Shown here piece after piece: positions 3,290 to 46,992 of a stretch of DNA of 64,000 nucleotides. A program made the position numbers and the translations under genes. How positions within the stretch are numbered: position 1 is the first letter of the stretch; every line of letters starts with the position of its first letter. The DNA lies in IMG/VR virus record IMGVR_UViG_3300050343_000215, positions 1 through 64,000 of that record. One strand, 5' to 3'. The stretch is from a virus. The notes under the pieces were generated by a model. That model ran no database searches. It was not told the origin of the DNA and saw only the letters and a list, made by a program, of their open reading frames with translations.

Positions 3290-3317
3290 ATTATAGGGCA
3301 TCAGGCAGCGATGCCAA
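3290..3317 (-). promoter_or_regulatory. Sigma70-like promoter
   Basis: On the minus strand, TTGGCA (3317-3312) and TATAAT (3295-3290) are separated by 16 bases. The downstream gene starts at 3266. The promoter sits inside the last codons of the preceding gene. Confidence 0.6.
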
Positions 3318-3885
3318 GGGTCTTAGTACCAGTTTGGGAACTGTCACAGGACCACTGGACAATGGGGCGAGCGATGGCAGTCTGCATCAGTGCTGCAACG
3401 TTGGTGCAGATGTAATCATCATTACCGCCACTCTGTCCACCCTGTTGCACATTGAACAAGCAATCATCACTCTTCAAGTGTGCTTCAAAATCTTCTTTAG
3501 TGATGTAGAACACGCGAATGTCCTGCTCAGAAGGATTAATTCCGCAGAAGATCAGGCGTTCCCAATCCTTACATACGGAAACATGATTAATGATGAACTT
3601 ATCAACGATCACACCACCTTTTTTAGCGCGAGTGGCGATAGAGAACTTAATCTCTGTGAGGATATTACTGATCACACGATCATGTCCTGCCGTAGATGTT
3701 GCGGCACGTTTGACTTCACAGAGCATGTTCTCCATGAACTTAGACACAAAACGCTCACCAAACTCACCCTTCTGCTTAGGTGACATGAACACATAACCCT
3801 CAAAAGGTGTACCTACCCAAGGATCACTCAGATTGCTGTCAACATAGGAGCGGAGACTACCATCAGCGAAAAGATTGTCAAACAT
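3301..3885 (-). CDS. Putative PD-(D/E)XK nuclease-like protein
   Basis: The start at 3885 (MFDNLFADGSLRSYV) is chosen because a promoter and terminator lie upstream of it and the longer frame would read through them. The 194-residue protein contains KQKGEFGERFVSKFMENML and later DRVISNILTEIKFS. A glutamate-containing helix followed by D...ExK is the pattern of PD-(D/E)XK restriction-type nucleases. The call is tentative. The C-terminus (QWSCDSSQTGTKTLG) is not recognised. Confidence 0.5.
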   Translation of the reverse strand: MFDNLFADGSLRSYVDSNLSDPWVGTPFEGYVFMSPKQKGEFGERFVSKFMENMLCEVKRAATSTAGHDRVISNILTEIKFSIATRAKKGGVIVDKFIINHVSVCKDWERLIFCGINPSEQDIRVFYITKEDFEAHLKSDDCLFNVQQGGQSGGNDDYICTNVAALMQTAIARPIVQWSCDSSQTGTKTLGIAA

Positions 3886-3909: not shown

Positions 3910-3938
3910 AGTATGGCATAAAAAAAGCACCCTGTCAA
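3910..3938 (-). promoter_or_regulatory. Sigma70-like promoter TTGACA-N17-CATACT
   Basis: TTGACA (3938-3933) and CATACT (3915-3910) on the minus strand are 17 bases apart, upstream of the gene starting at 3885. The -35 hexamer is the loop of the terminator at 3920-3944. Confidence 0.65.
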
Positions 3939-3944
3939 GGATGC
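3920..3944 (-). terminator. Rho-independent terminator overlapping a promoter
   Basis: The minus strand reads GCATCC-TTGACA-GGGTGC followed by seven T. The stem has six pairs (one G-T). It would end transcripts of the gene at 3957-4154 while its loop is the -35 box for the next gene. Confidence 0.65.
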
Positions 3945-3956
3945 TGAACCAGTTCA

Positions 3957-12239: not shown

Positions 12240-12268
12240 ATTATAAAGGCAGATGTCTCATCTGTCAA
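12240..12268 (-). promoter_or_regulatory. Consensus sigma70 promoter TTGACA-N17-TATAAT
   Basis: Both hexamers match the consensus exactly (12268-12263 and 12245-12240) with 17 bases between them. The -35 lies in the loop of a TGTCTC/GAGACA hairpin. It sits at the stop codon of the VWA gene and drives 11724-12221. Confidence 0.8.
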
Positions 12269-21187: not shown

Positions 21188-22380
21188 TAGTTCAATCTAA
21201 TAATAAGAGCAGTACCTGCAATTTCCTTTGTTGCTACCATTGAAATCATACCCATGGCACCAGTTGCTTGTATTGCAACAGAACCACCTAAGTTTTGTAG
21301 GAGGATTGTATTCAGTGGCGTGGGACCAGTTTGAATGCCAATATTACCTACTGCTGTTGCCTGGAGAACACAATCACCTTTAACCAAAGATCCAGCAGAC
21401 CATGCTGTTAGTCCTGGTGCAGCAGTGCCAACCTGACAGTAAGAATTACCCACAGGGATATTAACAAAATCTTGAGAATATTGTAGAAGAGGATCCATCA
21501 GCAATGTTGATGTCCTACTACCAACAATTTCATATTTTAATGCCTCAGTCGGCATTTCTATTTGCAGTGGTCCAACTTTTTTAATTGGGTTATTGTTGAC
21601 CTTGACTTTCATCTTGCCATCAACCTCAAGAATATAGTCATGACCTACTTTATGATGAAGTGTTCCCTGAGTTTCGTGGGTGGTAATATGAGCTCCTGGT
21701 CCCAAAACAGAGGGTTCCAGAATATTCATCTTCTGTTCCTGAATTACTTCACCATAATTCTCCTCCATCTTACTACCAGTAACAGTTTCTTTGAAACTGG
21801 TTGTAGAAAGTTCATACTGACCTGTGGAAATACTTAATTTGCCACTACCAACACTTTTTGTTAACCCAAATGGTACAGGATCTTGACTTCCAGTGTTTAA
21901 ACTAATTTGCTCTGCTGCTTTCAGTTTAATACTACCGCCTGCATTCAGTTCAATATCCTTAGCGGCAGAAATATAAATTCCTCCCTTACCATTAGATTGA
22001 ATACATATGTCTCCAGTGCCAAAGATTTCAACACTTTTTTCCTCATCTTCACCAGCCTCACCACCACCAGTAACTCTATGACCTTCAGCAATTAACTTAA
22101 TGTTATGCCCTGACTTGAAGTGCATATACCCCACTGATTTAACATCAAGGTATCCCTCATTAGGGGTCATATCTGAACTTCTAGCATTAATTAAAACTGC
22201 ACCATTCTCCTGCCAACGAACAAATGATCCGCGATAATGTCGCATCTCATAGTTCCTATCGTCAGGACCACATGTTTCTCTAATGGCAAAGGAGCTATCA
22301 GTGAGAGTCTCCCTTACCTCATTTATTTCCTCCGTAATTTTGGAAGATTCTTGTACAAGGGACTGTTTAGTATCTAACAT
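21187..22380 (-). CDS. Baseplate spike-type structural protein
   Basis: The 397-residue protein contains short repeating strands (GDICIQSNGKGGIYISAAKD, IELNAGGSIKLKAAEQISLN), the pattern of the intertwined beta-helix of gp5/VgrG-type spikes. The N-terminus (about 40 residues) is helical. It directly follows the 1843-residue hub-type gene, as if the T4 gp5 spike part were encoded separately here. The C-terminus (VATKEIAGTALIIRLN) is not a typical metal-binding tip. Confidence 0.6.
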   Translation of the reverse strand: MLDTKQSLVQESSKITEEINEVRETLTDSSFAIRETCGPDDRNYEMRHYRGSFVRWQENGAVLINARSSDMTPNEGYLDVKSVGYMHFKSGHNIKLIAEGHRVTGGGEAGEDEEKSVEIFGTGDICIQSNGKGGIYISAAKDIELNAGGSIKLKAAEQISLNTGSQDPVPFGLTKSVGSGKLSISTGQYELSTTSFKETVTGSKMEENYGEVIQEQKMNILEPSVLGPGAHITTHETQGTLHHKVGHDYILEVDGKMKVKVNNNPIKKVGPLQIEMPTEALKYEIVGSRTSTLLMDPLLQYSQDFVNIPVGNSYCQVGTAAPGLTAWSAGSLVKGDCVLQATAVGNIGIQTGPTPLNTILLQNLGGSVAIQATGAMGMISMVATKEIAGTALIIRLN

Positions 22381-22381
22381 T

Positions 22382-25300
22382 TTATGGGCAATCTACGATG
22401 AACACGGTTCCAATTGTACTATCATTATATTTATTGACGACTCTGAGATAGCGTTCAGCAACTTCACTACAAGGAACAAATTGGATAATTGGTTTAGCAG
22501 ATCCACCAAATCCATTAGCACCTCTGATTCTAATATCAGGAAGTTTATCATAAACTATATTTTGTGGATTGGTGATTCTAATCTCAACAAGTTTTCCATC
22601 CTCAATAGCAGCAAATGCTATAGTTGGGTCGCCATTAACATAAACAGTAGGCGATGATTCATAATAACCACCGACATTCGTAAGAGCAATCTCACTAAGA
22701 ATTCCGCATTCACCTGCTATATCAACGTTTGGAGTATATCCAATACCTGGAGATTTTACTATAATATTAATTAAACATCCATGCTCATCTAACTCTGCTT
22801 TAGCAATAGCACCAGTCCCAAGACCGCTGATAGCAATTAAAGGAGGTTGCTTATATCGCACATTACAGTCTTGCAATTCAGGAGGAATAGGCACAGAAAC
22901 TACACCACCAGGAGGACCAACAATAACTGGTGTACTAGGAGGTGGATCGTCAGTAAACAAATCATCCTCATCATCATCATCAGGTACACAAACACCATTA
23001 ACACACACATATCCTTCAGGACAATCAGAATCTATCGTACATGCAAGTACACATACACCATTAACACACACATATCCTTCAGGACAGTCGTCATCTATTT
23101 TACATCCTATCACACACTTACCATTAACACATATCATACCTTCAGGGCAGTCTTCATCTATTTTACATTCATCAGGTTCAAGAGTAGGCGGTGGATCATC
23201 ATCAGGTTCATCAAATGGAGGAGGCGGGTCAATTATATCATCAACAGATACACAAACACCATCAATACATACCTGTCCTTTAGGGCAGTCAGCATCTATT
23301 GTACATTCTGGAGCAGGATCAGGTACACATTCACCATTGATACATATTTGACCTTCAGGACAGTCAGAATCTACTAAACATCCCGTAGTAGGAATAATAT
23401 CCTCATCTGGACAATAATATTCTTTGTTAGTTTTATCCTTCCAATATCCTTCTTTCTCCTTCATATATGTAAGAGAGTTTGGATCTTCAAACAACATTCT
23501 TCTCACGACCGTGCAATCATCATCAGGATCATCATCAGGAAAATCTTCTGGAACATCTTTGTTATCAGTAGGTTCAATAATATCACACAGCCCAGAATCA
23601 GGAGCAACACCAAAATCAACAGTGAGAAGTTTTACAAGTTCTCCCATTCCACTGAAAGAATATCCACCCTGGTCTGGGAATGATAATGTGTTCCCAACCG
23701 TGTAGTTTTGACCAGGGTTAACAATTTTAAGAATTGTATATCTGGTATTCTTAGGTTCGTTATTTTCATCAAAGAGTGCCTCAAATCTTGCTTTTACTCT
23801 AAGACCTGTTCCATCACCGCCAACTAAGTCAAACTCACTTTCATAAGAATCTTTCATATTAGCCCAGTTAAGGGCAGTACCATAAGTATGCTGTGCGAAT
23901 TCACCAATCCTCTTCGGATAGAACCCTGCTTCAAAATCATTGATTAACTTATTTTTAACACTAGATTCATTAGGTGTAACAGAAAGAATGGTCAATCTAG
24001 CATTTTCATCAAAACCATTCTCAGGATTGTCATCCCATCTAGCTACTTGACCTTTTGAAATAATTTGTGGCTTACTTTGTTCTTTACCAACTTCAACAGA
24101 AGCTGTAGTAGTAGCGTCAACTGCAATAGTTTTTCTATCAGTACCCGATGTACCTTTTTGTTGAGTCGTCCAACTAACCTTTTCACCATTACCAACTTTC
24201 AAAGTTCCTACAGCGAGACCAGATGTACTAGGGTTATCATTCCAAGTAAACTTTAAGGAGACATCCCCCTTCCCAGTAACAAGCATTTGAGTTCCATCAT
24301 CATTAAACTTTGCAGTGACACCGGAAGATGTATCTTCAATTTCTAACGCAGCATTTTTATCAAAACCATTAGAGGCACGATCATCAAACTGGACTTCTTT
24401 ACCACCACGGACAACTTTTCTGCCCGCCGTAGAGGATTCACCTTCAGTTCTGATAGCAAATGATTTTTGAGCATCAGTAGTTTCGGTGGTGGTGGAAAGT
24501 TGATTCCCTTTATATTTGAATTTATAAGTTTCTCCAGAACTAACAAATACGGTTTTCGTTACTGAACCTTTTTCTTTTAACTGTTTAAAAGTTTTACCCG
24601 CGACAAAAAGTTCTCCAACTGCTAAACCACTTTTATCAGGATCATCATCCCATTCAAATCTTAATTTAACAGCACCTTCCCCAACATCACCAGTAACCTT
24701 TAAACCAGACCCATCATTAAGGAACTTTGCATCAAGTTCATTAAGAACACTTTCTGCGGTCATCCTAGGTTTAAAGTTTTCAAAAAGTTCTATAGACTCA
24801 CCAAAACCGGCAGGAGTAGCAGCTACATCAGTATATGAGATTAAATCCCCATCCTGAAGTGTTCCAGGAGGAGCACAGTTTACAGTGCTAGAATAACACC
24901 CCTTTTTAGTGATTCCAATATATGTTTGCTTAGTTGTAAATGTAATTACAGGAGTAAATGCTGATGGAGTTGAAGGTGTTCCAGTAATCGTACAACGATA
25001 ATACTCCTCATCCATAATCAAATAAGATGGTTGAGCAACTTTTAATCTATTAGTTACAGCGCCAGAATATGTAATGCTAGCAGACTGTGGAACAGTAGAT
25101 GTTGACCATTTATCAAGGGTAGTTCCACCAATAGTAACACCAGACGGACCAAAGGTGGTTACTCTTTCATTAATAGTTTCAGATCTAACACCATCGGCAA
25201 CAGCAGTCCATGTACCAGAAGGATCATAAGTTCTCTCCCATGCATAAGATAATGTATAACCAGGAACACTCGCTTTAGCAACAAATCCAATCTTTAGAGG

Positions 25301-27913
25301 AATAGATTCCTCCTGAACCAAACAAGTAATAGGTTCAGATGTCAATACAATTTCAGGTTCACATACGGGAGATGGTTTAAAGTTTGTGCTATAGTTAATA
25401 ACTGCAGTTCTCTCTACACCTTCACCTACTTGAGTTGATCCTTGTTGTCCAACTCCACCAAGATTTGATCCTGTTTTTACTGGAAGTAATTCATCTGTAA
25501 ATTTAACTTTAAATGTTTTTGTAGTATTATTCAGTGAAAAATCAGTGAAAGTTGGGACAGAGAAAATTTTCATACTTTCCCCTGCTGCAAATGTAAGAAT
25601 ACCTTCTCCACCAGTATAATGTGTGCCTTGAACAGCAGGGAAAGTTAAAGTATTATCCTGAATCGTTTCGCATTTAACTCTAGTGGTAAAATTTACCACA
25701 GGGGTACGAATTACTTTGAATTGTGCAGGTTGTCCTGCAACTACACTAACAGGACCGACTACATAATTTACATTTTTAGTAATAATCTCAGGTGGGAAGT
25801 AAATATCACTTACTGCTTGAGCTTTCTTTTCAATCGGTTTAAATTTAATCTTCAGTTTAGTGGTATTAAGAATTTCTGATGTACTAGGAAAATTTTTATA
25901 TGGAAATTTTTTGTCATTAAAATCAGATGATGATCTGTAAATTGAAGCAGTATATGTTACTTCTTCAGTAGTTTGAACACCTGCTTCATCCTTAGGAGGT
26001 TCAGCAACTACCGTGGGGATATCTATGGTAACTTCATTTTGCCCCTTTTTAAATACAACTTCCTCAGAAAAAATTACATTTTTTCTTTTTGGGAACTGTT
26101 GAATAATTTTTTTCCTTTTATTCCTCGGCGCTTTACCATATTTGTTATCACCTAAAGAAGATCCTTTGATGATATCACCGCCAGATGTAAGACCTTCAGT
26201 AATACCAACAACTCTGGCAGTGTCATTTGGGTTCAAATATGCAGCAAAAATAATTACACCTTGGTACTCAGTATTATTTCTTCGGATTTGTACCTTCTGA
26301 GTTTTACCACTCTTGACAGTTTCCTTTTTAGGGAAAATCATATATTCGGAATCATATCTATCATCTGGTTTGCCAATAACAACAGCATATGTTGAGGAGG
26401 GAGAATATGGAGCTGGATCACCAGGAACTGATGGCGGAGCATCAGAACCATCTCCATTCTTTCCGTTACTAAGGTTATTGCAAAAATCAAATACGTCAGA
26501 TACTTTTGACGAAGCAATATTAGTTGCTGTGGTGAATGCATTTCTTAACGCTTGGTTATCTGTAGAGACTCCAGGAACATTTGCCGTTCCAAGATCAACA
26601 CCCTTTGCAAACGCTGCTGCTTCTGCGTTTGCTGAGGCAGTAGACTTATTAATATCATTTGATAAATTGTTGATGCCCTGCAATCCACCCTCAAGAGAAG
26701 ATTTAATACCTGTTGTTAGACCAAACTCACCAGGATTATTAAACGCAGTGATAAGAGCATTTGAAGCAGAAGTGGAACATGATCCAGAACCACCACAACT
26801 AATTCCTAGGAAGTCTAATACAGCATTGATTGCTTCACCTAAAAGATTACCAAAACCACCAATGATACCAGCAATAGACTCAATAGCACCCATGATACTC
26901 TCAATAAGACCTAGGACTTCTCCCATAATCTCATTAAGAATACCATCAACTAATGTATCCAGACAACCAAATACACTACTAATTGCTGAATCTACAAGTG
27001 TATTAAGAAGACCTTCAATCATATTGCCAACTAGTCCCTCAATATTACCAAAACTACAGAACACCATGTTGAGAATTTTCTCAATGGTTTCATTAATTGT
27101 TGATGTGACGCCTTTAAGAGGAACCATGATCAACTTCACTAATTGATCAATAGCTTTTCTAGCATATTTGGTGATGATTGCTTTAACCCAACCAATTCCA
27201 CTACGAATAACACCACTAATAGAAGCAAGATATTTTTGAACATATCCTGTCATGGAGAATAACTCTCCAGTTAAACCATTAACAAACTTAGATCCAATTT
27301 TACCATCCGTATTCTGAACGATCTTTAAGAAATCGCCAATGAATGCTCCAATGTCTGATGATAATGACCCACTGTCACCACACTTATCAGCACCCTTTAT
27401 ACTTTCACCATTTTCAGGAATCTTGGATGCTTTTGTTACAACCTTAAAGCAACCATTATCTCCTTGAATACCACTCTTATTCTCTTTAAGAGGTTCTACA
27501 AGTTGGGCAGCAACATAAGGAGATGTTTGATCAAAATCTTCTTTTTTGCCTAGAACTGGGTGCTTTGCTTTATGTGCAGATATGATTACAGGACTACTAT
27601 AATCTGGTCCATCAAATCTAACAACAACAAATTGACCTTTACCATATTGTCTAACATTATTATTTCTTACCGCACTATTAGCAGACTCAGTTCCAATAGT
27701 AGCAATCCAAGGAAGTGCTGCCTTTGCTACTACATCTTCCTCACAATTATTTTCATCAATATCACAATATCCATGAATAGCAGGACATCTGACTTGATAG
27801 TATCCCCCACCACCTTCTGATTTCGCACTGGTAATCCAACCAAGTAAATTAGTGCCTGGTTTGGTAAGTTCTTTACCTTGATACGATAAATTTTTGGAAA
27901 AGTCTGTGTTCAT
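22382..27913 (-). CDS. Giant gp5-like baseplate hub protein with Cys-rich repeats
   Basis: The 1843-residue protein begins with a gp5-like OB-fold region (LLGWITSAKSEGGGGYYQVR, ALPWIATIGT, GKGQFVVVRFDGPDYSSPVI). Residues about 190-380 are hydrophobic and helical (FGNLLGEAINAVLDFLG). The middle holds Calx-beta-like and immunoglobulin-like beta segments. At about 1508-1644 there are five cysteine repeats of the type C.ID.DCPEGYVCVNGVCV, separated by acidic or proline-rich linkers. It starts at the stop of the gp27-like gene. The lysozyme domain of T4 gp5 is not seen here but hydrolase domains occur in the neighbours. Confidence 0.6.
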   Translation of the reverse strand: MNTDFSKNLSYQGKELTKPGTNLLGWITSAKSEGGGGYYQVRCPAIHGYCDIDENNCEEDVVAKAALPWIATIGTESANSAVRNNNVRQYGKGQFVVVRFDGPDYSSPVIISAHKAKHPVLGKKEDFDQTSPYVAAQLVEPLKENKSGIQGDNGCFKVVTKASKIPENGESIKGADKCGDSGSLSSDIGAFIGDFLKIVQNTDGKIGSKFVNGLTGELFSMTGYVQKYLASISGVIRSGIGWVKAIITKYARKAIDQLVKLIMVPLKGVTSTINETIEKILNMVFCSFGNIEGLVGNMIEGLLNTLVDSAISSVFGCLDTLVDGILNEIMGEVLGLIESIMGAIESIAGIIGGFGNLLGEAINAVLDFLGISCGGSGSCSTSASNALITAFNNPGEFGLTTGIKSSLEGGLQGINNLSNDINKSTASANAEAAAFAKGVDLGTANVPGVSTDNQALRNAFTTATNIASSKVSDVFDFCNNLSNGKNGDGSDAPPSVPGDPAPYSPSSTYAVVIGKPDDRYDSEYMIFPKKETVKSGKTQKVQIRRNNTEYQGVIIFAAYLNPNDTARVVGITEGLTSGGDIIKGSSLGDNKYGKAPRNKRKKIIQQFPKRKNVIFSEEVVFKKGQNEVTIDIPTVVAEPPKDEAGVQTTEEVTYTASIYRSSSDFNDKKFPYKNFPSTSEILNTTKLKIKFKPIEKKAQAVSDIYFPPEIITKNVNYVVGPVSVVAGQPAQFKVIRTPVVNFTTRVKCETIQDNTLTFPAVQGTHYTGGEGILTFAAGESMKIFSVPTFTDFSLNNTTKTFKVKFTDELLPVKTGSNLGGVGQQGSTQVGEGVERTAVINYSTNFKPSPVCEPEIVLTSEPITCLVQEESIPLKIGFVAKASVPGYTLSYAWERTYDPSGTWTAVADGVRSETINERVTTFGPSGVTIGGTTLDKWSTSTVPQSASITYSGAVTNRLKVAQPSYLIMDEEYYRCTITGTPSTPSAFTPVITFTTKQTYIGITKKGCYSSTVNCAPPGTLQDGDLISYTDVAATPAGFGESIELFENFKPRMTAESVLNELDAKFLNDGSGLKVTGDVGEGAVKLRFEWDDDPDKSGLAVGELFVAGKTFKQLKEKGSVTKTVFVSSGETYKFKYKGNQLSTTTETTDAQKSFAIRTEGESSTAGRKVVRGGKEVQFDDRASNGFDKNAALEIEDTSSGVTAKFNDDGTQMLVTGKGDVSLKFTWNDNPSTSGLAVGTLKVGNGEKVSWTTQQKGTSGTDRKTIAVDATTTASVEVGKEQSKPQIISKGQVARWDDNPENGFDENARLTILSVTPNESSVKNKLINDFEAGFYPKRIGEFAQHTYGTALNWANMKDSYESEFDLVGGDGTGLRVKARFEALFDENNEPKNTRYTILKIVNPGQNYTVGNTLSFPDQGGYSFSGMGELVKLLTVDFGVAPDSGLCDIIEPTDNKDVPEDFPDDDPDDDCTVVRRMLFEDPNSLTYMKEKEGYWKDKTNKEYYCPDEDIIPTTGCLVDSDCPEGQICINGECVPDPAPECTIDADCPKGQVCIDGVCVSVDDIIDPPPPFDEPDDDPPPTLEPDECKIDEDCPEGMICVNGKCVIGCKIDDDCPEGYVCVNGVCVLACTIDSDCPEGYVCVNGVCVPDDDDEDDLFTDDPPPSTPVIVGPPGGVVSVPIPPELQDCNVRYKQPPLIAISGLGTGAIAKAELDEHGCLINIIVKSPGIGYTPNVDIAGECGILSEIALTNVGGYYESSPTVYVNGDPTIAFAAIEDGKLVEIRITNPQNIVYDKLPDIRIRGANGFGGSAKPIIQFVPCSEVAERYLRVVNKYNDSTIGTVFIVDCP
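22965..23385 (-). repeat. Coding repeats for five cysteine-rich modules
   Basis: Five segments of about 60-120 bases encode near-identical modules with six cysteines per module pattern C-x5-C-P-x4-C-x4-C. The two nearest the C-terminus are almost identical in DNA (both encode DCPEGYVCVNGVCV), which suggests recent duplication. They lie within the gene at 22382-27913. Confidence 0.7.
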
Positions 27914-29283
27914 CAGGACTCTACTAGTTTACAAATTTCCATATGAGTATACACATGAGTAATATCTTCAATCCTATGATTGATCTTCGTGATCAAATAT
28001 ACTCCTGAATATTTATCACTCGCCTGATCAGCCTTTCCAGAGTCTCCCTTAATTAAAGGAAAATCAAGATATAAATGACCACCAGCGGACAGTGATAAAT
28101 TGCCAGGAACTCTAATCGTAGATGCCCTAGCTTTTAACATATCTAACATAGCACCATAATTCATAGAGGACAATGTTGGATTAACTGGTTCATTATCTAG
28201 GGCAGTCTCGTCACATACATTATAATACTCAATCTGATATTCTGTTTCCTCAATGTATTTAACTGTCGTAAACTCACCATCTGATGCACATTTTAAACAT
28301 TTATCCTCCATGGTTTTTGGAGGTAATTTTTCAATAGACTTAAGTTTATTTCGTTGACCATCAATGAGAATAGTTTTGGTTTTACCTCTCTTCTTTGTCG
28401 CGATCTCCTCAAGAAGACTAGATTGAGTGGCACCATCATAGAACTTATAACTTAAAATAGTTTGAGATGCAAGCGCAGGACCAGTTTGATTATCATTAAC
28501 AAACTTAACTTGATATGCAGTTCCACTCTTGGTATCTAATCTAAAAGGCTCTGTGAGTATCGTATTAATTGAATCAAATCTATACTCATCGTAGGTCTCA
28601 TAGAATACATAACCAGCAGGTCTGGTTTCTTCTTTACCAGAACCATCAGTTCCTTTTGGTGTAGCAGGCTTACACATACTGTTAAGGAGTTGATAAACTA
28701 ACTTGTTATGCCCCTGTATTTTTGCAACACTTTCTGTCATTTGTTCCATAACAGGTGCTTTATTCTTGGCAGTTTGTATATACCTACCAAGTACATCATC
28801 AACAACAGTATTATAATCTACCTTTGTAGTTTCATCAGGAGGCCAAGAACTTTTAACATTTTTAGATAATGCCACAATAGCATCTTTATTGATAAGTTCT
28901 AAAGTATATTGCTTTTTCTTACCTTTAATTACTTGATTGACAACTCTATTAACATAGAAACAGTTACTACCAAAAAATTCAAATTTTGGGCGTTTTTTCT
29001 GCCAGTCAGTTCCACTACTAGGATCATTAACAACGATCTCTACAGGACAAAATTGACGCACACCACATTTGTTAAATGCTTCATCAACAGCACCAGCAGA
29101 GTCTAGGATAGTAATATCAGCAGTGATAAAAGATTCGTATAATGATTCATAATAATTAAACGAAATTACTTCAGGAAATTCTACTGGATCTCCTGAAGGT
29201 GCTAATCCAACCAGTTTATTACTATCAGGAATATCATATACTTTTGCTTGTATAGCCCTTACGTTAGGTTCAGTAACTGACAT
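27913..29283 (-). CDS. gp27-like baseplate hub protein
   Basis: The 456-residue protein contains FPEVISFNYYESLYESFITA and DITILDSAG near the N-terminus and GVYLITKINHRIEDITHVYT near the end. These are features of gp27/tail hub proteins that form the trimeric ring above the spike (the last segment resembles the ...HI...YTT... end of hub proteins). Its position directly upstream of a gp5-like gene matches T4-like hub organisation. The assignment is by context and pattern. Confidence 0.55.
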   Translation of the reverse strand: MSVTEPNVRAIQAKVYDIPDSNKLVGLAPSGDPVEFPEVISFNYYESLYESFITADITILDSAGAVDEAFNKCGVRQFCPVEIVVNDPSSGTDWQKKRPKFEFFGSNCFYVNRVVNQVIKGKKKQYTLELINKDAIVALSKNVKSSWPPDETTKVDYNTVVDDVLGRYIQTAKNKAPVMEQMTESVAKIQGHNKLVYQLLNSMCKPATPKGTDGSGKEETRPAGYVFYETYDEYRFDSINTILTEPFRLDTKSGTAYQVKFVNDNQTGPALASQTILSYKFYDGATQSSLLEEIATKKRGKTKTILIDGQRNKLKSIEKLPPKTMEDKCLKCASDGEFTTVKYIEETEYQIEYYNVCDETALDNEPVNPTLSSMNYGAMLDMLKARASTIRVPGNLSLSAGGHLYLDFPLIKGDSGKADQASDKYSGVYLITKINHRIEDITHVYTHMEICKLVES

Positions 29284-29284
29284 A

Positions 29285-29668
29285 TTATTCCTCTGTTGCG
29301 TAGATATCTTGTGTCATTAATATTGTTTTAGCACCAAAAACATTTTGGGTTGTTTGCGATACAGTATCTATATTAGATATTGATCTTTGTGTAGTGGTCT
29401 GCGATTGTCTAGTAATTTCTGAAATCTTACTAGTAACCTTTATAAGATTACTTTGAATACTATCAATAGAGGTATCTCTTGTAATAGATTCTACCCCCAT
29501 ATCATCATTATTAGATAGTGATGATTGTTGTTGACGTTGAAGATAACTTGATGTAGGTTTACTTGATTCAGGAATCGGTGATCTATTAATAGAAGTGGTA
29601 TTGTTTTGAATAGGTGTCTGTGCTTTTGACTCCTGCTCTCTTGTCATTTCTTTCAAAAATTTCTTCAA
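29285..29668 (-). CDS. Structural-cluster hypothetical protein, 127 residues
   Basis: The protein begins MKKFLKEMTREQESKAQTPI and is rich in S, T, Q and N with little predicted fold (SSYLQRQQQSSLSNNDD). It overlaps the upstream SleB-like gene by 83 bases in another frame, and it ends one base before the gp27-like gene. It is probably a minor virion or assembly protein. Confidence 0.5.
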   Translation of the reverse strand: MKKFLKEMTREQESKAQTPIQNNTTSINRSPIPESSKPTSSYLQRQQQSSLSNNDDMGVESITRDTSIDSIQSNLIKVTSKISEITRQSQTTTQRSISNIDTVSQTTQNVFGAKTILMTQDIYATEE

Positions 29669-30971
29669 TTTTTTTGAAAGGTTGCTTGAATAAGATATTT
29701 AAGATTTGCTGACCAATCGGTCTCTCAGTAGGAATAACAATCAAAGGTTCACCCACCTGCTGCAGATCAACTATAGTAGGTTTGTTTACAATGAATTGAG
29801 CAAGGTCATCAGTCTTGTCATTGACATTATAGTAGATATTATGTTTTACGTCAAATAATTGAGGTAAAATAATAGCACCAGTAGAATATGCATCTCTAAA
29901 GAAGTTTCCGCCCTCGCCTCTCTTTCGTTCATTCAGTCCACCTGTCTCATATTTCATAAAGTATTCTGCACCACCAACAAATTCTGCCGCTGCTTCTGAC
30001 ATTGGTCCTTCAGATTCAAAGTCATCTAACACTTGCTGAGCAACAGCAGCATTACCATTACCAAATTTCTCAACTAATAATTGCATTCCATTTGGTTTAG
30101 CAGCAATCTCAAAAATTTCTTTCTTAGTGATGCCTATATCACCATACACACTAGCGGCGGCGGTGTCAGCACTAGTCCCATAAATTGCAGCAGAATATGG
30201 CGAGAACTGTTCTTTCTCAGTAATAACAACAGATAGTGGTTGATTTCTTTTTTTAGCTCTATTCAACATAACCTGGAATGCATCAGCAACATTTTGTGCT
30301 CCAGAAGCTTCAAGTGTGGCAAGATGAGCAGCAGCAACTAAATCTGCACCAGATGCTTTAGCATCTTTTATACTTGCAGCATCTAATGGGTCAGCAGCAC
30401 CGAAAGAACCCGCTGCAGCTCCTGCTAGCACTGCTAGAAAACCTGTTAAATCTTCTTGATTGATGTTTAGATCAGTCAATTTAGTTTTAGCTTCTTCTTC
30501 CTTCTCCCCAGTTTTTTCTAATAATTTTTCAGTAAGTTTTAATTTTCTATTTTGAATTTCACGCTCAAGTAATTTGTTATAAACAATTTTATGATAATCA
30601 ACCCTTCTAACATTATTCAACAACTTAGTCAGATTAGCAAGAAGATTATTAAATCTCTCTAGCAGATAGTTCCAATCGTCCACATCCTCATCAGATACTA
30701 GAAGATTAAATTGATTTTTAGGCACTAGATAATGTTTCTTATCTTGATCAAACTCCAACATCCATGGCGGAATGATTGGCACAAACATGCTCGCAAAGTT
30801 CTTCAACTCCTGCTTAAACTTTGCAGCAGGAATTATCTTGGTAAGTGCCTTGATCTTAACACTTTTACCAGATCCAACCATCGGCGTTTCCGCCGTCATT
30901 TTTTCATAAGTTAGGTTTTTCCTTGACTGCTCCAACTGGAACGGGGATATGCCCTGACGTGGTTTAATCAT
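29586..30971 (-). CDS. Tail protein with SleB-like cell-wall hydrolase domain
   Basis: The 461-residue protein has a helical, charged N-part (residues 60-160), then an Ala-rich segment and a domain at about 220-330: HLATLEASGAQNVADAFQVM, LNRAKKR, EKEQFSPYSAAIYG. This matches the SleB/Hydrolase_2 pattern (A.VILNR......QFS....G), a family that cleaves the peptidoglycan glycan strand. Its place in the hub cluster suggests a tail-associated hydrolase for DNA entry. Confidence 0.6.
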   Translation of the reverse strand: MIKPRQGISPFQLEQSRKNLTYEKMTAETPMVGSGKSVKIKALTKIIPAAKFKQELKNFASMFVPIIPPWMLEFDQDKKHYLVPKNQFNLLVSDEDVDDWNYLLERFNNLLANLTKLLNNVRRVDYHKIVYNKLLEREIQNRKLKLTEKLLEKTGEKEEEAKTKLTDLNINQEDLTGFLAVLAGAAAGSFGAADPLDAASIKDAKASGADLVAAAHLATLEASGAQNVADAFQVMLNRAKKRNQPLSVVITEKEQFSPYSAAIYGTSADTAAASVYGDIGITKKEIFEIAAKPNGMQLLVEKFGNGNAAVAQQVLDDFESEGPMSEAAAEFVGGAEYFMKYETGGLNERKRGEGGNFFRDAYSTGAIILPQLFDVKHNIYYNVNDKTDDLAQFIVNKPTIVDLQQVGEPLIVIPTERPIGQQILNILFKQPFKKIEEIFERNDKRAGVKSTDTYSKQYHFY

Positions 30972-32953
30972 GACTCAGTATAATAGACAGTTGGTTGATA
31001 GAATGCGACGACCTCACCACGAACATCACCAAATGAGAATTGTTCTTCTGTCTCATTAGCAACTTGCATTTGCTCATTGCCTGGTATATTATTTAACGAA
31101 GATTGATTACCAGGACTTTGGAACATTTTTTTAATGGTTAGATCAGGAACAAATGGAATTCCAGAACCCACCTTACCAGGACCAACTTTACCCTCACCAA
31201 CAATCTTAGGACCAACAATTTGTGGAGGTCCAGATAATAAAAGCATCTTCTCAATCTTCTCTCTAGTAGGAAGTCCTCTACCATTTTGTTCGGATGCTTC
31301 CCTAAGATTTCCCTCTTCTATAGCTTTACTAAAGTCAGGAGCACTATACCAGAAGTATGGTTGATTAAATCCATACAATATGACACCAGCCTGCTGTTCG
31401 GGTGTGAAGTATTTAAATTTTGGAAAATATTTTGTGTTTAAGAAATTATCATGATAGTCTCTAACTTGAAATTCAAGTAACTGATCAGCTTCCTTTTTGG
31501 TCATTGTCATATTAGGAAATACTGCTCTATTACCTTTAGTTATTTCATCAAGGAATGTGAATCCCCAACCGATAGTAGTTCTATCATTATCAACTCCAGT
31601 CTCATAAGCATGGAACACCGTATCATCAGTAATATTTTTATATCTTGGTTCTGATGGTTTCACCCACATATTTCTACCAGGAACTAATGAAGAGATTCCT
31701 TCCTCTTCCTTAATCCACTCAATACCTTTAGCAATTCCACCCTCACCCATCATATTCAGACTAAAACCAGATTGTCTCTCAACACCAAGATCATTATATC
31801 TACCATAAGGAGGATTATATAAAGGATTTAAAGATTTAATCTTCTCCTCCATCATCAACTGAGCAAAAATTGGCATTTGACTCATTGGAATAACAAATTC
31901 AGCACCAGCTTCACCGACCATCACTCTACCAACTCTTTCAATAGATCCTTCAGATCTCTGCTCCATCATTTCATCACCAGCGATCACATAATCAATGTAT
32001 GGCATGGGATTCTCTCCACCATAATCAGGTCTTACCTCAGGATGAACTTCAATATGGAAGTGAGGACCAGTAGAGAATCCAGTATTACCAGACTTACCTA
32101 ATACTTCACCAGCATCAATAGTATCTCCATCCTTCACTGCAACCTCACTGAGGTGAGCAAATCTAAACATTTTATTTAATGATGGCACCCAAGCATCTAA
32201 AAGTAATCCATAACCTACTGATGGATCATCAGCATTCTGATAACCAACATATTTAATGATAGATTTCTTTTTAAGTGCAAACATTGTCCCGACAGGAACA
32301 CCAATATCAACACCACCATGCATTTTTCCCCAACGATGACCATATGCAGAGGTTAGTTCATAACCACTAACATCAGATCCCTCTGTTTCACCTTTTGCTT
32401 TAAGTTGCCCCGCGACTGGTTGATATGGAACAATTACAATAGACTCTGCTTGATTAGAAATTCTATTTTCAAATCCTTTGGCGAGAAAGTTTGCCGCCAT
32501 AAGTCCAAGAATATTATCAGTCAAAAGTCCGCCACCAGTAGCAGGGTTAAATGAGTTGCTTAATTTATTTGTAGCAAATTTTCTGGCAGTTCTTTTGGCA
32601 CGGGAAGTTTTTTGTTTTTGATCGCTGGTCTCAAGTCCATGCAGAGATCTCTTCTGCTCAACTGCTTTCAAATAGTTTGAATGCATCTCGGAGAGAAAAT
32701 TCTCCATTGAGTCAAGATAAGTTCCCAATCTAACAAAGAATTTACTCATTGGGTTGGTAGACTTATTCTCAATAATAAGTTGCTTTACCTTCTTTTCAGG
32801 AACAACCTCAAGATTTTCTACATCATCTAACTTGAGAATTCCATCAACACTAGCAATAGCAATAGGTGTAATATTATCAGCTACAACAAAGACTTCGGAA
32901 GCAAATGCCTCCGAATCTCTCTCTATCATTTTAGTCTTTGCTTTAAACATCAA
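30968..32953 (-). CDS. Tail lysin with M23 endopeptidase and lysozyme-like domains
   Basis: The 661-residue protein has two hydrolase modules. At about 205-305 is an M23 zinc endopeptidase (WGKMHGGVDIGVPVGT, RFAHLSEVAV, TGPHFHIEVH), which cuts peptide cross-links. At about 405-560 is a T4-lysozyme-like domain (GIEWIKEEEGISSL, HAYETGVDNDRTTIGWGF, MTKKEADQLLEFQV). It overlaps its neighbours by four bases. It probably opens the cell wall during infection. Confidence 0.8.
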   Translation of the reverse strand: MMFKAKTKMIERDSEAFASEVFVVADNITPIAIASVDGILKLDDVENLEVVPEKKVKQLIIENKSTNPMSKFFVRLGTYLDSMENFLSEMHSNYLKAVEQKRSLHGLETSDQKQKTSRAKRTARKFATNKLSNSFNPATGGGLLTDNILGLMAANFLAKGFENRISNQAESIVIVPYQPVAGQLKAKGETEGSDVSGYELTSAYGHRWGKMHGGVDIGVPVGTMFALKKKSIIKYVGYQNADDPSVGYGLLLDAWVPSLNKMFRFAHLSEVAVKDGDTIDAGEVLGKSGNTGFSTGPHFHIEVHPEVRPDYGGENPMPYIDYVIAGDEMMEQRSEGSIERVGRVMVGEAGAEFVIPMSQMPIFAQLMMEEKIKSLNPLYNPPYGRYNDLGVERQSGFSLNMMGEGGIAKGIEWIKEEEGISSLVPGRNMWVKPSEPRYKNITDDTVFHAYETGVDNDRTTIGWGFTFLDEITKGNRAVFPNMTMTKKEADQLLEFQVRDYHDNFLNTKYFPKFKYFTPEQQAGVILYGFNQPYFWYSAPDFSKAIEEGNLREASEQNGRGLPTREKIEKMLLLSGPPQIVGPKIVGEGKVGPGKVGSGIPFVPDLTIKKMFQSPGNQSSLNNIPGNEQMQVANETEEQFSFGDVRGEVVAFYQPTVYYTES

Positions 32954-35340
32954 TCAATATCACTATCATGTGTAGATCTAGTAAATACACTCGTTCTCAT
33001 AAAAATATCAGGAGAATCATCACCGACAAAACTAGGTGCTTTCTTCTTACCAGGAATCTTAATATAATCAGGCGGCAGTGGTGTAATGTCTAGTTTCTGC
33101 TCATTTTTACCAGACATCATACTACCTTGAGCATTCTCAAGATTTTGTGATGGCATCGGACCCTTATATCCAGGAGCATTATAATAAGCATTGGGACCAG
33201 TAACCTGATCATACGTGGCTGTAGAAGCAGGATTAACTAATTCATTAATAATTAACTCAGCAAATAATGCAAATGGATTCAGTGCAGAAGAAGGATTGAT
33301 ACCTCTTCCTACAGCACGAACAGGTCTTTCAAATGCCTGACGAACAGCAGGAGTAGGACCAGTTTTTACCATATCAGGTGTGAATGCCTTGAAAGGATTC
33401 CATCCTTTCATTCCTGTTGCACCAGATTTAAATGCTTTATTACTTCTAGTAATTTGTCTGGCATCATCTGCCATCAAACCATCTGGTCCTCTCCATCGCG
33501 CAGTATTCTCATTAGGAACTCTAGTATTTCTACCCTTATTCCACCATCCGGCAAGACCACCATCTGCCATAGGCATAATCTTACTAGACATTCCTCTAAA
33601 ATAATTTAATGATTCACTATTATACAATTGAACATCACCATATCCACCACTTGATTTAGTTTTAATTTTTGGTATTATATCACTACCTTGTAAAAAGTCT
33701 TCTATTTTGGTTTTAGCGGCTGGTTTGTTAAGACTTTCTTGTAAACTTCTCGCATTCATATCTCTTTGAATACCTGCAGGTGCTGGTTGATCCGACAAAT
33801 TTCTAACTTGTCTTTCAATTCCTTTTTGATCTCTTTGTTTTTGGGATACTTTTCTACCAGTGCGAGTTACCTTTCCTCCACCACCTTGCATACGCGCTAA
33901 TGCTCTCTGTCTAGCAGTCATTCCTGCTCCAGGTTTCACTGGTGTAGCAATAGGTTTAGGCGCAACTGTAGTTACAGGTTTAGGAGCAGCAACAGTTGTA
34001 GCAGCAACATCATCTGCCACACCAGTGCCTGCTTTTCCTGCCTTAACAGTAATCTCAGCAACATCATCACTTAAACCAAATAATCTTTTAAGACCAGGAA
34101 CTCTAGAAACAAATGGAACTCCAAGTCTTCTAACGGTGTTTGCGATTGCAGGTGCTTTTGCGGCACCCTGTTGTAATGCACCACCGCCACTCATCATCAT
34201 GACAGTTTCTAATGCAAATTCTAAATCCTTACTGATAGGAAGACCAGTAACTTCAGCTAATGATTTAGGATTAGTAAATCCATCCAACATTGTCTGTAAG
34301 GGATTTACTGCTGGAGGTGGTTCTGAAATTACTGGTGATACTGGTGAGTATTCAGTTTGTTCACCATTAATTTCTTCATTAAGTTGTTTGAGTGCTTCCT
34401 TTGGTGTGAGTGCAGGAGCAGCTGCCTGAGATGCTGCATCAAATTCACCACTGCGTAAAAACTCTTCCGTTTGACCATTAGAATTTGAAAAAGCTAATGG
34501 TGTAGTTGCATCTGCAGATTCATTACTAGCTACCCCTGGATTTAATAAAGGTCCAAAAAGAAACGGTAGGAGTTTTAAAATATCTGGGAACGCAAACCCA
34601 GGTTCAAATTCTGGTTCTTCTTTCTTAGGAGGAATAAGAACACCGGGTGGATTAGGTTGCAGAGGAGGTTTAACCTTAGTCCCTTCGGCAGCAGGATTTA
34701 GAGATGGCTTTGGATTTTTGCTTGGTACAGGAGCGGTGCCAGGGGATCCGCCGGGTCCTCTACCACCGCCACGGCGACCGCCACCAAAAAATGGAAATCC
34801 ACCACCACCAGGCAGTTTAGGTTTCTTAGATCCACCGCCCATGGCGTCAGGATTTTCAAAATCAACAGTCTTATCTAATAGATACTCTTCAAATGTATTT
34901 TGATATAACTCTCTCTTACGCTCAAATAATTCTTTCTCTGTGAGAATCTGTACTTTCTGAAGTTTGACAACATCCTTCATCAACTTTTCAGTTGCTGCCA
35001 TCTTAGCTTCAATCGCCTTCAGATGCCCCTGGATAGTCTTATTCTTTACAGGGGGGATCTTAATATTTTCAATTTTAGGCAGATCCAGAGTCGCAGCAGC
35101 AGGCATCTCTGCCATCCCAACAACCTGATCAGGAGTAACAGGAGGATTGACTGCCTTTACAACAATCTTAGGATCTGTACTGGGGTCTAACCCAGGATTG
35201 CCAACCTTAGGTGGACCCTGTTGAGCAGCAGGTTGACCCTGTTGAGCAGCAGCAGGTTGCTGTTTATTATTAGCAGCAGGTTGCTGACCAGCAGCTGGCT
35301 GATTATTATTAGGTGGTTGATTTGCTGCGGGTACTGCCAT
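32950..35340 (-). CDS. Large tail-cluster structural protein, 796 residues
   Basis: The N-terminus is a low-complexity Q/N/A/P stretch (NNNQPAAGQQPAANNKQQPA). A coiled-coil-like segment follows at about 95-150 (KAIEAKMAATEKLMKDVVKL), then a glycine-rich stretch and long helical or disordered parts. It lies immediately after the gp26 frameshift extension, where lambda-type phages keep the tape measure gene. A tape-measure or hub-assembly role is possible but unproven. Confidence 0.5.
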   Translation of the reverse strand: MAVPAANQPPNNNQPAAGQQPAANNKQQPAAAQQGQPAAQQGPPKVGNPGLDPSTDPKIVVKAVNPPVTPDQVVGMAEMPAAATLDLPKIENIKIPPVKNKTIQGHLKAIEAKMAATEKLMKDVVKLQKVQILTEKELFERKRELYQNTFEEYLLDKTVDFENPDAMGGGSKKPKLPGGGGFPFFGGGRRGGGRGPGGSPGTAPVPSKNPKPSLNPAAEGTKVKPPLQPNPPGVLIPPKKEEPEFEPGFAFPDILKLLPFLFGPLLNPGVASNESADATTPLAFSNSNGQTEEFLRSGEFDAASQAAAPALTPKEALKQLNEEINGEQTEYSPVSPVISEPPPAVNPLQTMLDGFTNPKSLAEVTGLPISKDLEFALETVMMMSGGGALQQGAAKAPAIANTVRRLGVPFVSRVPGLKRLFGLSDDVAEITVKAGKAGTGVADDVAATTVAAPKPVTTVAPKPIATPVKPGAGMTARQRALARMQGGGGKVTRTGRKVSQKQRDQKGIERQVRNLSDQPAPAGIQRDMNARSLQESLNKPAAKTKIEDFLQGSDIIPKIKTKSSGGYGDVQLYNSESLNYFRGMSSKIMPMADGGLAGWWNKGRNTRVPNENTARWRGPDGLMADDARQITRSNKAFKSGATGMKGWNPFKAFTPDMVKTGPTPAVRQAFERPVRAVGRGINPSSALNPFALFAELIINELVNPASTATYDQVTGPNAYYNAPGYKGPMPSQNLENAQGSMMSGKNEQKLDITPLPPDYIKIPGKKKAPSFVGDDSPDIFMRTSVFTRSTHDSDID

Positions 35341-45402: not shown

Positions 45403-45608
45403 ATCAATTTAGATAACGAGATGAAGAGCAGGAATGCTAACATTATAACCACATCCCAGGATTTTGTCTTTATAAAGTAAGGAACTGAAATAAGATCCGC
45501 AATGAAGTGTGCGCCCACACCAACTAATACATTTACATGAAGGACGATGAAGTAGGCAACAATGACGAGAGCACTACCTATGATCCTTAAACGAACTACA
45601 TTTACCAT
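45399..45608 (-). CDS. Small membrane protein, 69 residues
   Basis: The protein has two or three hydrophobic segments (IIGSALVIVAYFIVLHVNVL, VVIMLAFLLFISLSKL). Its start overlaps the thyX stop by seven bases and its end overlaps the next gene by four. The function is unknown. Confidence 0.6.
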   Translation of the reverse strand: MVNVVRLRIIGSALVIVAYFIVLHVNVLVGVGAHFIADLISVPYFIKTKSWDVVIMLAFLLFISLSKLI

Positions 45609-46234
45609 TCAAGTGCTTCTGATACTGCAGGGAACTGTTCTTTGAAAACGTCACGAACACCTTCAGCAACAATCATATGTTCCTTCTGAGTGCCATGAGC
45701 GGACCTTAGATCAATATAATGTACCCATGACCGAACTGAGCCTGTCATGTAGATTTTTGTGGGCGTACAGAGTGGAAGCACATTTCTTGCACATTCCTTT
45801 GCCACACCTCGCTCTAGCATTTGTTGATACAATGCCATTGCCGAATCAAATAATGTCGTCATTTGGATTTCCATATTCTGGACATCAAATGCATCCAGAT
45901 CATCAATGGAATTCTGACGATTCTTGGTGTCCTGCCTACGGAGTTCTGGTAGGGGGATCTTCGGACCCAGTAAGGAACTATCAGCATAACGTTGGGAAAA
46001 TTCTTGGAATGTAAATGAACGGTGCCTCAGGATCTGAGCTGCGATTGCCCTAGTCGTTTCAATTTCAACAGTCATGTATGCCTGCTCAAAGATACTCCAG
46101 TGTTGATGCTTAATACAATACTTCAGAAGACCACTGAACTTCTCATTATCCTGGTTATTGGGGTTAGACACACGAGCACAGTATGCCATGTGTTTTTCGG
46201 CATCTGGGGTAACAGAGACAATCTTAACAGTCAT
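45602..46234 (-). CDS. thyX: Flavin-dependent thymidylate synthase (ThyX)
   Basis: The start at 46234 (MTVKIVSVTPDAEKHMAYCA) is chosen because the promoter lies at 46259-46287. The 210-residue protein has the ThyX motif RHRSFTFQEFSQRY (RHRxxSxNExSxRY family) and the later R...H.....AQ.E-type region (SWVHYIDLRSAHGTQKEH). ThyX makes dTMP from dUMP using FAD and methylene-tetrahydrofolate. The phage needs it for DNA synthesis. Confidence 0.92.
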   Translation of the reverse strand: MTVKIVSVTPDAEKHMAYCARVSNPNNQDNEKFSGLLKYCIKHQHWSIFEQAYMTVEIETTRAIAAQILRHRSFTFQEFSQRYADSSLLGPKIPLPELRRQDTKNRQNSIDDLDAFDVQNMEIQMTTLFDSAMALYQQMLERGVAKECARNVLPLCTPTKIYMTGSVRSWVHYIDLRSAHGTQKEHMIVAEGVRDVFKEQFPAVSEALEW

Positions 46235-46258
46235 TCTACGATGAAACAATATGGAGTT

Positions 46259-46287
46259 ATTTTAGCAATAAAAAAGGAGGGCGTCAA
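46259..46287 (-). promoter_or_regulatory. Sigma70-like promoter TTGACG-N17-TAAAAT for thyX
   Basis: TTGACG (46287-46282) and TAAAAT (46264-46259) are 17 bases apart, just upstream of thyX. The spacer shares CCCTCCTTTTTT with the promoter at 46758-46785, but here no full hairpin forms. Confidence 0.65.
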
Positions 46288-46736
46288 GGGGGGTCAGTCA
46301 GAAATGATTCTACTTCATCGCAATCAAGAACATAGAATTGAGATGATTTGATTCCTCTGTTCAACATCTGCATGATCCTATGCTTACCATCAATCATTCT
46401 ATACCTGTTCCCATATGGATTAGGAGCACCTTCTACAATTATTCCTGGAATTGTTATGTCTGCATTAAGATATCTTAATGATGGTCTTTCTTCACAACAG
46501 AAACAATTCTCTCCAGTGTTATGTGGATGATGATGCTTCCCTAACCAAGCGATGTTGTGTAGTTCTACAGTTTGTATGTTGTCATGGGTAAGTAAATGAT
46601 AAATGTCTTTCATGCGAATGAAATGAAGTGTTCCTAGTTCTTCATTGGGTTTTGCCCACTCCCAATTACCTGTTGCTACGGTATACCATGCTTTATGACG
46701 CCTCCTTCCAGGAAATGGTTCTGGTGGTAATGTCAA
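46284..46736 (-). CDS. ParB/Srx-fold-like hypothetical protein
   Basis: The frame starts at a TTG (46736), preceded by GAGGA at good spacing; no ATG lies in frame upstream. The 150-residue protein contains NPYGNRYRMIDGKHRIMQML NRGI, close to the ParB/sulfiredoxin motif (..V.DGkHR..A...) that binds nucleotides. A CC pair and several histidines (KHHHPHNTGENCFCCEERP) could bind metal. The ParB link is tentative. Confidence 0.55.
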   Translation of the reverse strand: MTLPPEPFPGRRRHKAWYTVATGNWEWAKPNEELGTLHFIRMKDIYHLLTHDNIQTVELHNIAWLGKHHHPHNTGENCFCCEERPSLRYLNADITIPGIIVEGAPNPYGNRYRMIDGKHRIMQMLNRGIKSSQFYVLDCDEVESFLTDPP

Positions 46737-46757: not shown

Positions 46758-46785
46758 ATCATAGCATAAAAAAGGAGGGCGTCAA
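46758..46785 (-). promoter_or_regulatory. Sigma70-like promoter TTGACG-N16-TATGAT
   Basis: TTGACG (46785-46780) and TATGAT (46763-46758) precede the gene starting at 46736. The -35 lies in the loop and 3' stem of the terminator at 46768-46792. Confidence 0.65.
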
Positions 46786-46792
46786 GCCCTCC
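46768..46792 (-). terminator. Rho-independent terminator overlapping a promoter
   Basis: The minus strand reads GGAGGGC-TTGAC-GCCCTCC followed by six T: a perfect 7-bp stem with the TTGAC loop. It ends the transcript from 46953 and contains the -35 of the next promoter. Confidence 0.8.
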
Positions 46793-46800
46793 TCCACAAA

Positions 46801-46953
46801 TCAATCTGGATAACCGTCATCGTCATCCCCTACTTTATAATTATCTGTACTTTTATACAGATCTATATCGGAATATATTTCGCTTTCCAACGCATCTACA
46901 AGTAACTTTAAATTCGTAAGTATTAACTTTAGCCTATCCCTATCTACCTGCAT
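46801..46953 (-). CDS. Small acidic hypothetical protein, 50 residues
   Basis: The frame starts MQVDRDRLKLILTNLKLLVD and ends in an acidic tail (KVGDDDDGYPD). GGAGG lies at ideal spacing before the ATG, and the gene is framed by two terminators. The function is unknown. Confidence 0.6.
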   Translation of the reverse strand: MQVDRDRLKLILTNLKLLVDALESEIYSDIDLYKSTDNYKVGDDDDGYPD

Positions 46954-46967
46954 GAAACCTCCATAAT

Positions 46968-46992
46968 AAAAAAAGGAGGGTTACCCCCTCCC
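46968..46992 (-). terminator. Rho-independent terminator
   Basis: GGAGGG and CCCTCC flank a short loop and are followed by eight T-rich bases on the minus strand, ending the transcript of the DUF4278-like gene. Confidence 0.75.

Follow-up and report, generated by a model that had tools for sequence, protein, structure and literature searches.

T4-like cyanophages appear to carry a composite element that fuses an intrinsic terminator and a sigma-70 promoter of the host type, both on one strand, a reading to which we assign a probability of about 0.8. The same segment of DNA would be read in two ways, as an RNA hairpin that stops one transcript and as duplex DNA that starts the next. This overlap is apparently real and recurrent in these phages, and it looks selected rather than accidental because relatives alter the letters of the stem yet keep the arrangement.

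The window that we analyzed is a stretch of 64,000 nucleotides corresponding to bases 1-64000 of an IMG/VR virus record of 177,686 bp. This record is of the T4-like cyanophage type, with DNA matches to Synechococcus and Prochlorococcus phages. The minus strand holds most of the genes and most of the strong terminators of the window, and all the features of the window described below lie on that strand.

Predicted terminators and promoters in the window

The composite at 46792-46758 (site 1) reads GGAGGGC-TTGAC-GCCCTCC-TTTTTT-ATGC-TATGAT. Its predicted intrinsic terminator (46768..46792) comprises the 5' arm GGAGGGC (46792-46786), the loop TTGAC (46785-46781), the 3' arm GCCCTCC (46780-46774) and a T6 run (46773-46768). 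It is overlapped by a predicted sigma-70-type promoter with a TG extension, TTGACG-N16-TATGAT (46758..46785). The -35 TTGACG (46785-46780) of this promoter is the terminator loop plus one base, its 16-nt spacer contains the T-run and its -10 TATGAT occupies 46763-46758. The sequence-only reading of this DNA had described a hairpin with a TTGAC loop, a T6 run and this same promoter, and the sequence, the fold and a terminator scan agree exactly with that description. The predicted folding energy of the RNA hairpin is -19.2 kcal/mol (z = -3.9), and the site has the form of an intrinsic terminator: a GC-rich hairpin with a short loop, a T-run directly after it and the end of an upstream gene nearby. 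The promoter matches the sigma-70 consensus at 10/12 positions, with a spacing within 16-18 nt. We rejected a bidirectional terminator at this site, where the plus strand presents A6 before the hairpin and no T-run after it.

Site 1 is followed by an open reading frame of 150 aa (46284..46736; phrog_35149, E 1.5e-49), a PHROG 35149 gene with relatives in cyanophages. Upstream lies a 50-aa gene of PHROG 878 (46801..46953; phrog_878, E 8.7e-14), whose stop codon is 15 nt ahead of the site 1 -35 and whose transcript is presumably ended by the site 1 terminator. This 50-aa gene is itself preceded by a terminator-only hairpin, GGGAGGG-GGTAA-CCCTCCT-T (46970..46992), whose loop is not a -35. Unlike this gene, similar small genes in other contigs, for example L055, L061, L088 and L089, follow a full composite.

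The arrangement had also been claimed to recur at 3910-3944 and, with a weaker hairpin, at 12240-12280. The former recurrence holds, as a second composite at 3910..3945 (AGCATCC-TTGACA-GGGTGCT-T6) whose sequence and fold include one G-U pair in the stem, a T-run and the predicted promoter TTGACA-N17-CATACT. The portion at 3920-3945 presents the same intrinsic-terminator form as site 1 (GC-rich hairpin, short loop, T-run and nearby upstream gene end), and the promoter matches 10/12 sigma-70 consensus positions. Its weaknesses are a -10 with two mismatches and a fold (z = -1.8) less striking than that of site 1. The downstream gene encodes a 194-aa protein of PHROG 6927 (3301..3885; phrog_6927, E 4.3e-82) whose homology begins near the ATG at 3885; this start lies 53 nt after the -35. 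At 12240-12280, only the promoter part of the claim survived (predicted promoter TTGACA-N17-TATAAT, 12240..12268). The weak hairpin there, with its loop of 9 nt and the absence of a T-run, does not qualify as an intrinsic terminator, and we rejected the site as a composite.

A further site, which the sequence-only reading did not mention, is a predicted promoter at 46259..46288, TTGACG-N17-TAAAAT with T6 in the spacer and a 21-nt match to site 1. It is part of the sequence TGACCCCCC-TTGACGCCCTCCTTTTTTAT-TGC-TAAAAT, located between the 150-aa gene and thyX, in which the repeat and promoter span 46288-46259. Downstream, thyX encodes thymidylate synthase (45602..46249; PF02511, E 1e-46), and its true start is likely the ATG near 46234. 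The 5' arm of this site is unpaired and the promoter hexamers are retained. From the letters, the predicted terminator would have been lost here and the promoter kept, so that the terminator and promoter functions would be separable.

The real record contains two composites. When its full 177,686 bp were shuffled 60 times with dinucleotide composition preserved, no composite appeared. A high copy number was rejected, since intact copies amount to 2 per 178 kb in this record.

Conservation in related phages

The PHROG 35149 gene (46284-46736) has relatives in 16 viral contigs, and the close ones retain site 1. In L014/L015 (79% amino-acid identity), the composite presents a different, complementary stem (GAGACCCC-TTGACA-GGGGTC-T6-ATGC-TATTAT), and its loop, spacing and -10 position are the same as in site 1. 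The more distant Sf-FP1 (42% identity) presents GGGGCA-CTTGACA-TGCCCC with a T-run. Other orthologous sites keep the hairpin with a drifted -35 (TTAACA in ACG-2014i and approximately TTGCGA in S-SKS1), and that of S-RIM32 keeps the hairpin with no clear -10; these cases count against the composite reading. In a set of 12 composites whose loop is TTGACN, each of the 8 stem pairs varies on both sides and 95.8% of the cells pair; the covariation score of this set was reached by 0 of 500 shuffles. The stems of the composites pair in three registers around the loop.

These compensated stem changes, with the TTGAC loop and the -10 retained, support the earlier proposal that one stretch serves as a terminator and as the next promoter. 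Covariation makes it possible to separate a freely varying stem from a fixed loop. The pattern was also sought in relatives as a check capable of refuting that proposal, and it was present in viral contigs numbering in the dozens. Among named cyanophages, the arrangement was found in S-SKS1, S-PM2, P-SSM2, P-SSM7, ACG-2014i and Sf-FP1.

Distribution of the composite

We scanned viral and bacterial/archaeal contigs for the pattern TTGAC-N5-9-T6-N2-6-TATNAT and defined as composites the matches whose TTGAC is enclosed by a stem of 6 bp or more. Among the matches listed, composites represented 35/123 (28%) in viral contigs, where the sites are partly related to each other, and 3/121 (2%) in bacterial and archaeal contigs. 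To estimate the chance level, we matched these 3' arms with upstream sequence taken from a displaced position, which gave about 0.4%. The low frequency among the matches listed in bacterial and archaeal contigs led us to reject a general bacterial feature. At least 43 distinct composites were listed. Among the proteins encoded downstream of composites, several have matches in phage families, and a search linked one of them to cyanophages; searches with two other such proteins returned no match, so not every contig was placed. The searched contigs usually contained one match to the pattern and most searched records hold a single site, whereas S-SKS1 carries about 5-6 copies when those with drifted -35s are included.

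A feature general to T4-like phages is unsupported, as RB49 and T4 have a tandem form. Scanning RB49, T4 and KVP40 for TTGAC followed by a T-run and a -10 yielded no match, and Syn9 presented no composite by pattern scan or by terminator/promoter geometry. We further conducted a census of 124 distinct terminators in 1.37 Mb of DNA from T4-like cyanophages and relatives, in which a -35-like loop was required to be within one mismatch of TTGACA and a -10 to be within one mismatch at the right distance. Such a loop was found in 20/124 terminators, and a correctly spaced -10 accompanied 15/20 of these vs. 17/104 of the others (P = 5e-7; Fisher test). None of the 41 terminators of T4 and RB49 presented a -35-like loop. 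In cyanophage terminators, the -35 is most frequent at the loop, and the -10 shows a sharp maximum about 20 nt from the loop center (40/124), whereas the -35 of T4 and RB49 is most frequent at +25 to +30 and at +40, past the T-run. At individual sites, the -35 lies at about +28 to +45 relative to the loop start in RB49/T4 and at -1 to +1 in cyanophages. The terminator-promoter geometries of cyanophages and of T4/RB49 are different.

Position relative to genes

The start codons downstream of composites are mostly found 49-56 nt past the first T of the -35, which leaves a short leader, and in many composites the upstream stop codon stands just ahead of the stem. The composite of S-PM2 is located between ORF 171 and hli03, that of P-SSM2 at the end of regA and that of P-SSM7 before nrdC. 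In S-SKS1 (region 22000-34000), one composite directly precedes an hli gene and another lies about 270 nt upstream of psbA, with a long leader. The TGA within TTGAC closes an open frame of at least 60 codons in 6/52 composites, including those of S-PM2 and P-SSM2. In these two phages the annotated stop codon is this very TGA (ORF 171 in S-PM2; regA in P-SSM2, region 142300-143400), and both the terminator loop and the -35 box overlap this codon. The motif is simple enough to serve in the prediction of promoters and operon ends of cyanophages, with candidates before hli genes and before psbA of S-SKS1.

At some composites (L035, L047, L065, L054, L080, L103 and L142), the start codon is only 34-38 nt past the start of the -35, near the expected transcription start. 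This suggests leaderless or near-leaderless mRNAs.

Proposed mechanism and alternatives

We propose that, as RNA, the GC-rich hairpin and the U-run would release the upstream transcript. As duplex DNA, the loop TTGAC(A/G) would be read as a -35 box by the host RNA polymerase holoenzyme, the 3' arm and the T-run would form the 16-17-nt spacer and the -10 would come directly after. Cyanomyoviruses are thought to use unmodified host sigma-70 polymerase for their early genes (PMC2984593), and the composite would be used early. The next gene would gain its own transcript within about 35 bp and be shielded from upstream read-through. The stem would be free to vary as long as it remains complementary, and selection on the promoter would hold the loop and the -10. 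With the release point inside the spacer, a polymerase in the course of terminating would block the overlapping promoter for a time. Since release of the RNA would take place within the next promoter, the composite also lends itself naturally to testing whether polymerases are recycled once they terminate. In our view, it is a long shot that this amounts to a relay in which the polymerase releasing in the T-run sits in the next spacer, rebinds sigma and restarts in place. If true, termination would feed initiation and the downstream gene would be tuned by upstream transcription, not merely excluded.

If only the terminator worked, a short loop and an AT-rich tail would have produced the TTGAC loop and the -10-like letters by accident. 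Many terminators of this phage do have other loops (TTAA, ATAT, GAAA, TTCG) and no -10, and AT-rich DNA often yields -10-like hexamers, promoter-like sites numbering 21 vs. 19 expected. However, the co-occurrence of -35-like loops with correctly spaced -10s in the census exceeds chance, TTGAC is retained when the stem changes and the shuffled records contained no composite, which makes this explanation very unlikely. The converse, that only the promoter works and that the hairpin is a by-product or another structure, such as a cruciform or a protein site hiding the -35, would fit the site at 46259-46288, with its lost hairpin and retained hexamers, and a stem extruded around the -35 could in principle bar sigma. 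Yet GC-rich stems followed directly by T5-T8 and mostly placed just past an upstream stop codon are the signature of intrinsic terminators, and freely varying stem letters argue against a sequence-specific protein site. We regard this converse as highly improbable.

The composite might instead be kept mainly as a recombination module, allowing gene gain, loss or swap through short repeats, with the regulatory overlap being secondary. In the window phage, a 21-bp direct repeat (regions 46259-46288 and 46766-46786, 498 bp apart) flanks the PHROG 35149 gene. In L014, the two corresponding sites share 21 bases (CTTGACAGGGGTCTTTTTTAT) unlike those of the window phage, and both hairpins are intact; in S-SKS1, a 23-nt repeat (96% identity) is found on both sides of the same gene. 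Each of these is the sole direct repeat of at least 16 nt found in its region, and when sites of this kind are paired at random across loci, 18 or more bases are shared in only about 0.4% of draws. The location of the gene also differs, near thyX in some phages and adjoining regA in S-SKS1. The simplest reading of these observations is that the copies on either side of the 150-aa gene underwent exchange or conversion, and the matched copies may have arisen in this way. This would apply to these lineages only and not constitute a general rule, because the flanking repeat was not found in ACG-2014i and other lineages that carry the gene. Most other near pairs of sites lack a long shared run, and the single site of most searched records likewise weighs against a role in recombination as the main reason for keeping the composite, which we consider unlikely. 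The fusion of a terminator with a promoter remains our preferred reading.

Comparison with known systems

The composite resembles ordinary intrinsic (Rho-independent) terminators in its GC-rich stem, short loop and T-run, but its loop has to spell a -35 hexamer and the T-run is followed by a -10. Host-type sigma-70 early promoters have been reported for the cyanomyoviruses S-PM2 and Syn9 (reviewed in PMC2984593). These promoters are similar in their TTGACA/TATAAT-like hexamers, their 16-17-nt spacing and their location upstream of phage genes; in the composite, however, the -35 is inside a terminator hairpin and the spacer consists of the 3' arm and the T-run. The haloarchaeal virus HGTV-1 presents an intergenic motif made of a TATA-like box and an inverted repeat, which its authors likened to PeSLs (PMC3950731). 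Like the composite, this is a repeated unit of promoter and inverted repeat ahead of genes, but the promoter is of the archaeal type and no -35 lies within a terminator loop. Our literature search, in which most subscription literature was out of reach, found no publication that places a -35 within the loop of a terminator or describes an overlapping terminator and promoter.

Arbiol et al. 2010 and Comeau et al. 2014 reportedly described PeSLs (promoter-early stem-loops) in T4-type phages such as RB49, phi1, PST and nt-1. PeSLs have been proposed as recombination modules, and their copies have been implicated in gene exchange. Both elements occur in T4-like phages and bring together, on one strand and within a small unit between genes, a stem-loop terminator and a promoter of the sigma-70 type. 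They differ in that the promoter of RB49 and T4 follows the T-run in tandem, whereas the cyanophage -35 coincides with the loop and the T-run serves as the spacer. Cyanophage copies are also fewer, in contrast to PeSLs, whose many copies cluster in variable regions, and their stems differ from one another. With respect to the gene shuffling associated with PeSL membership, matched repeats flank one gene in three lineages and are absent in others. One region of S-PM2 has been described as containing a host-like early promoter and separate stem-loops, unlike the dense PeSLs of other T4-like phages (PMC4503421). In this comparison, the cyanophage composite is an overlapped variant of the PeSL idea, and its nearest known relative is the PeSL of RB49-type phages.
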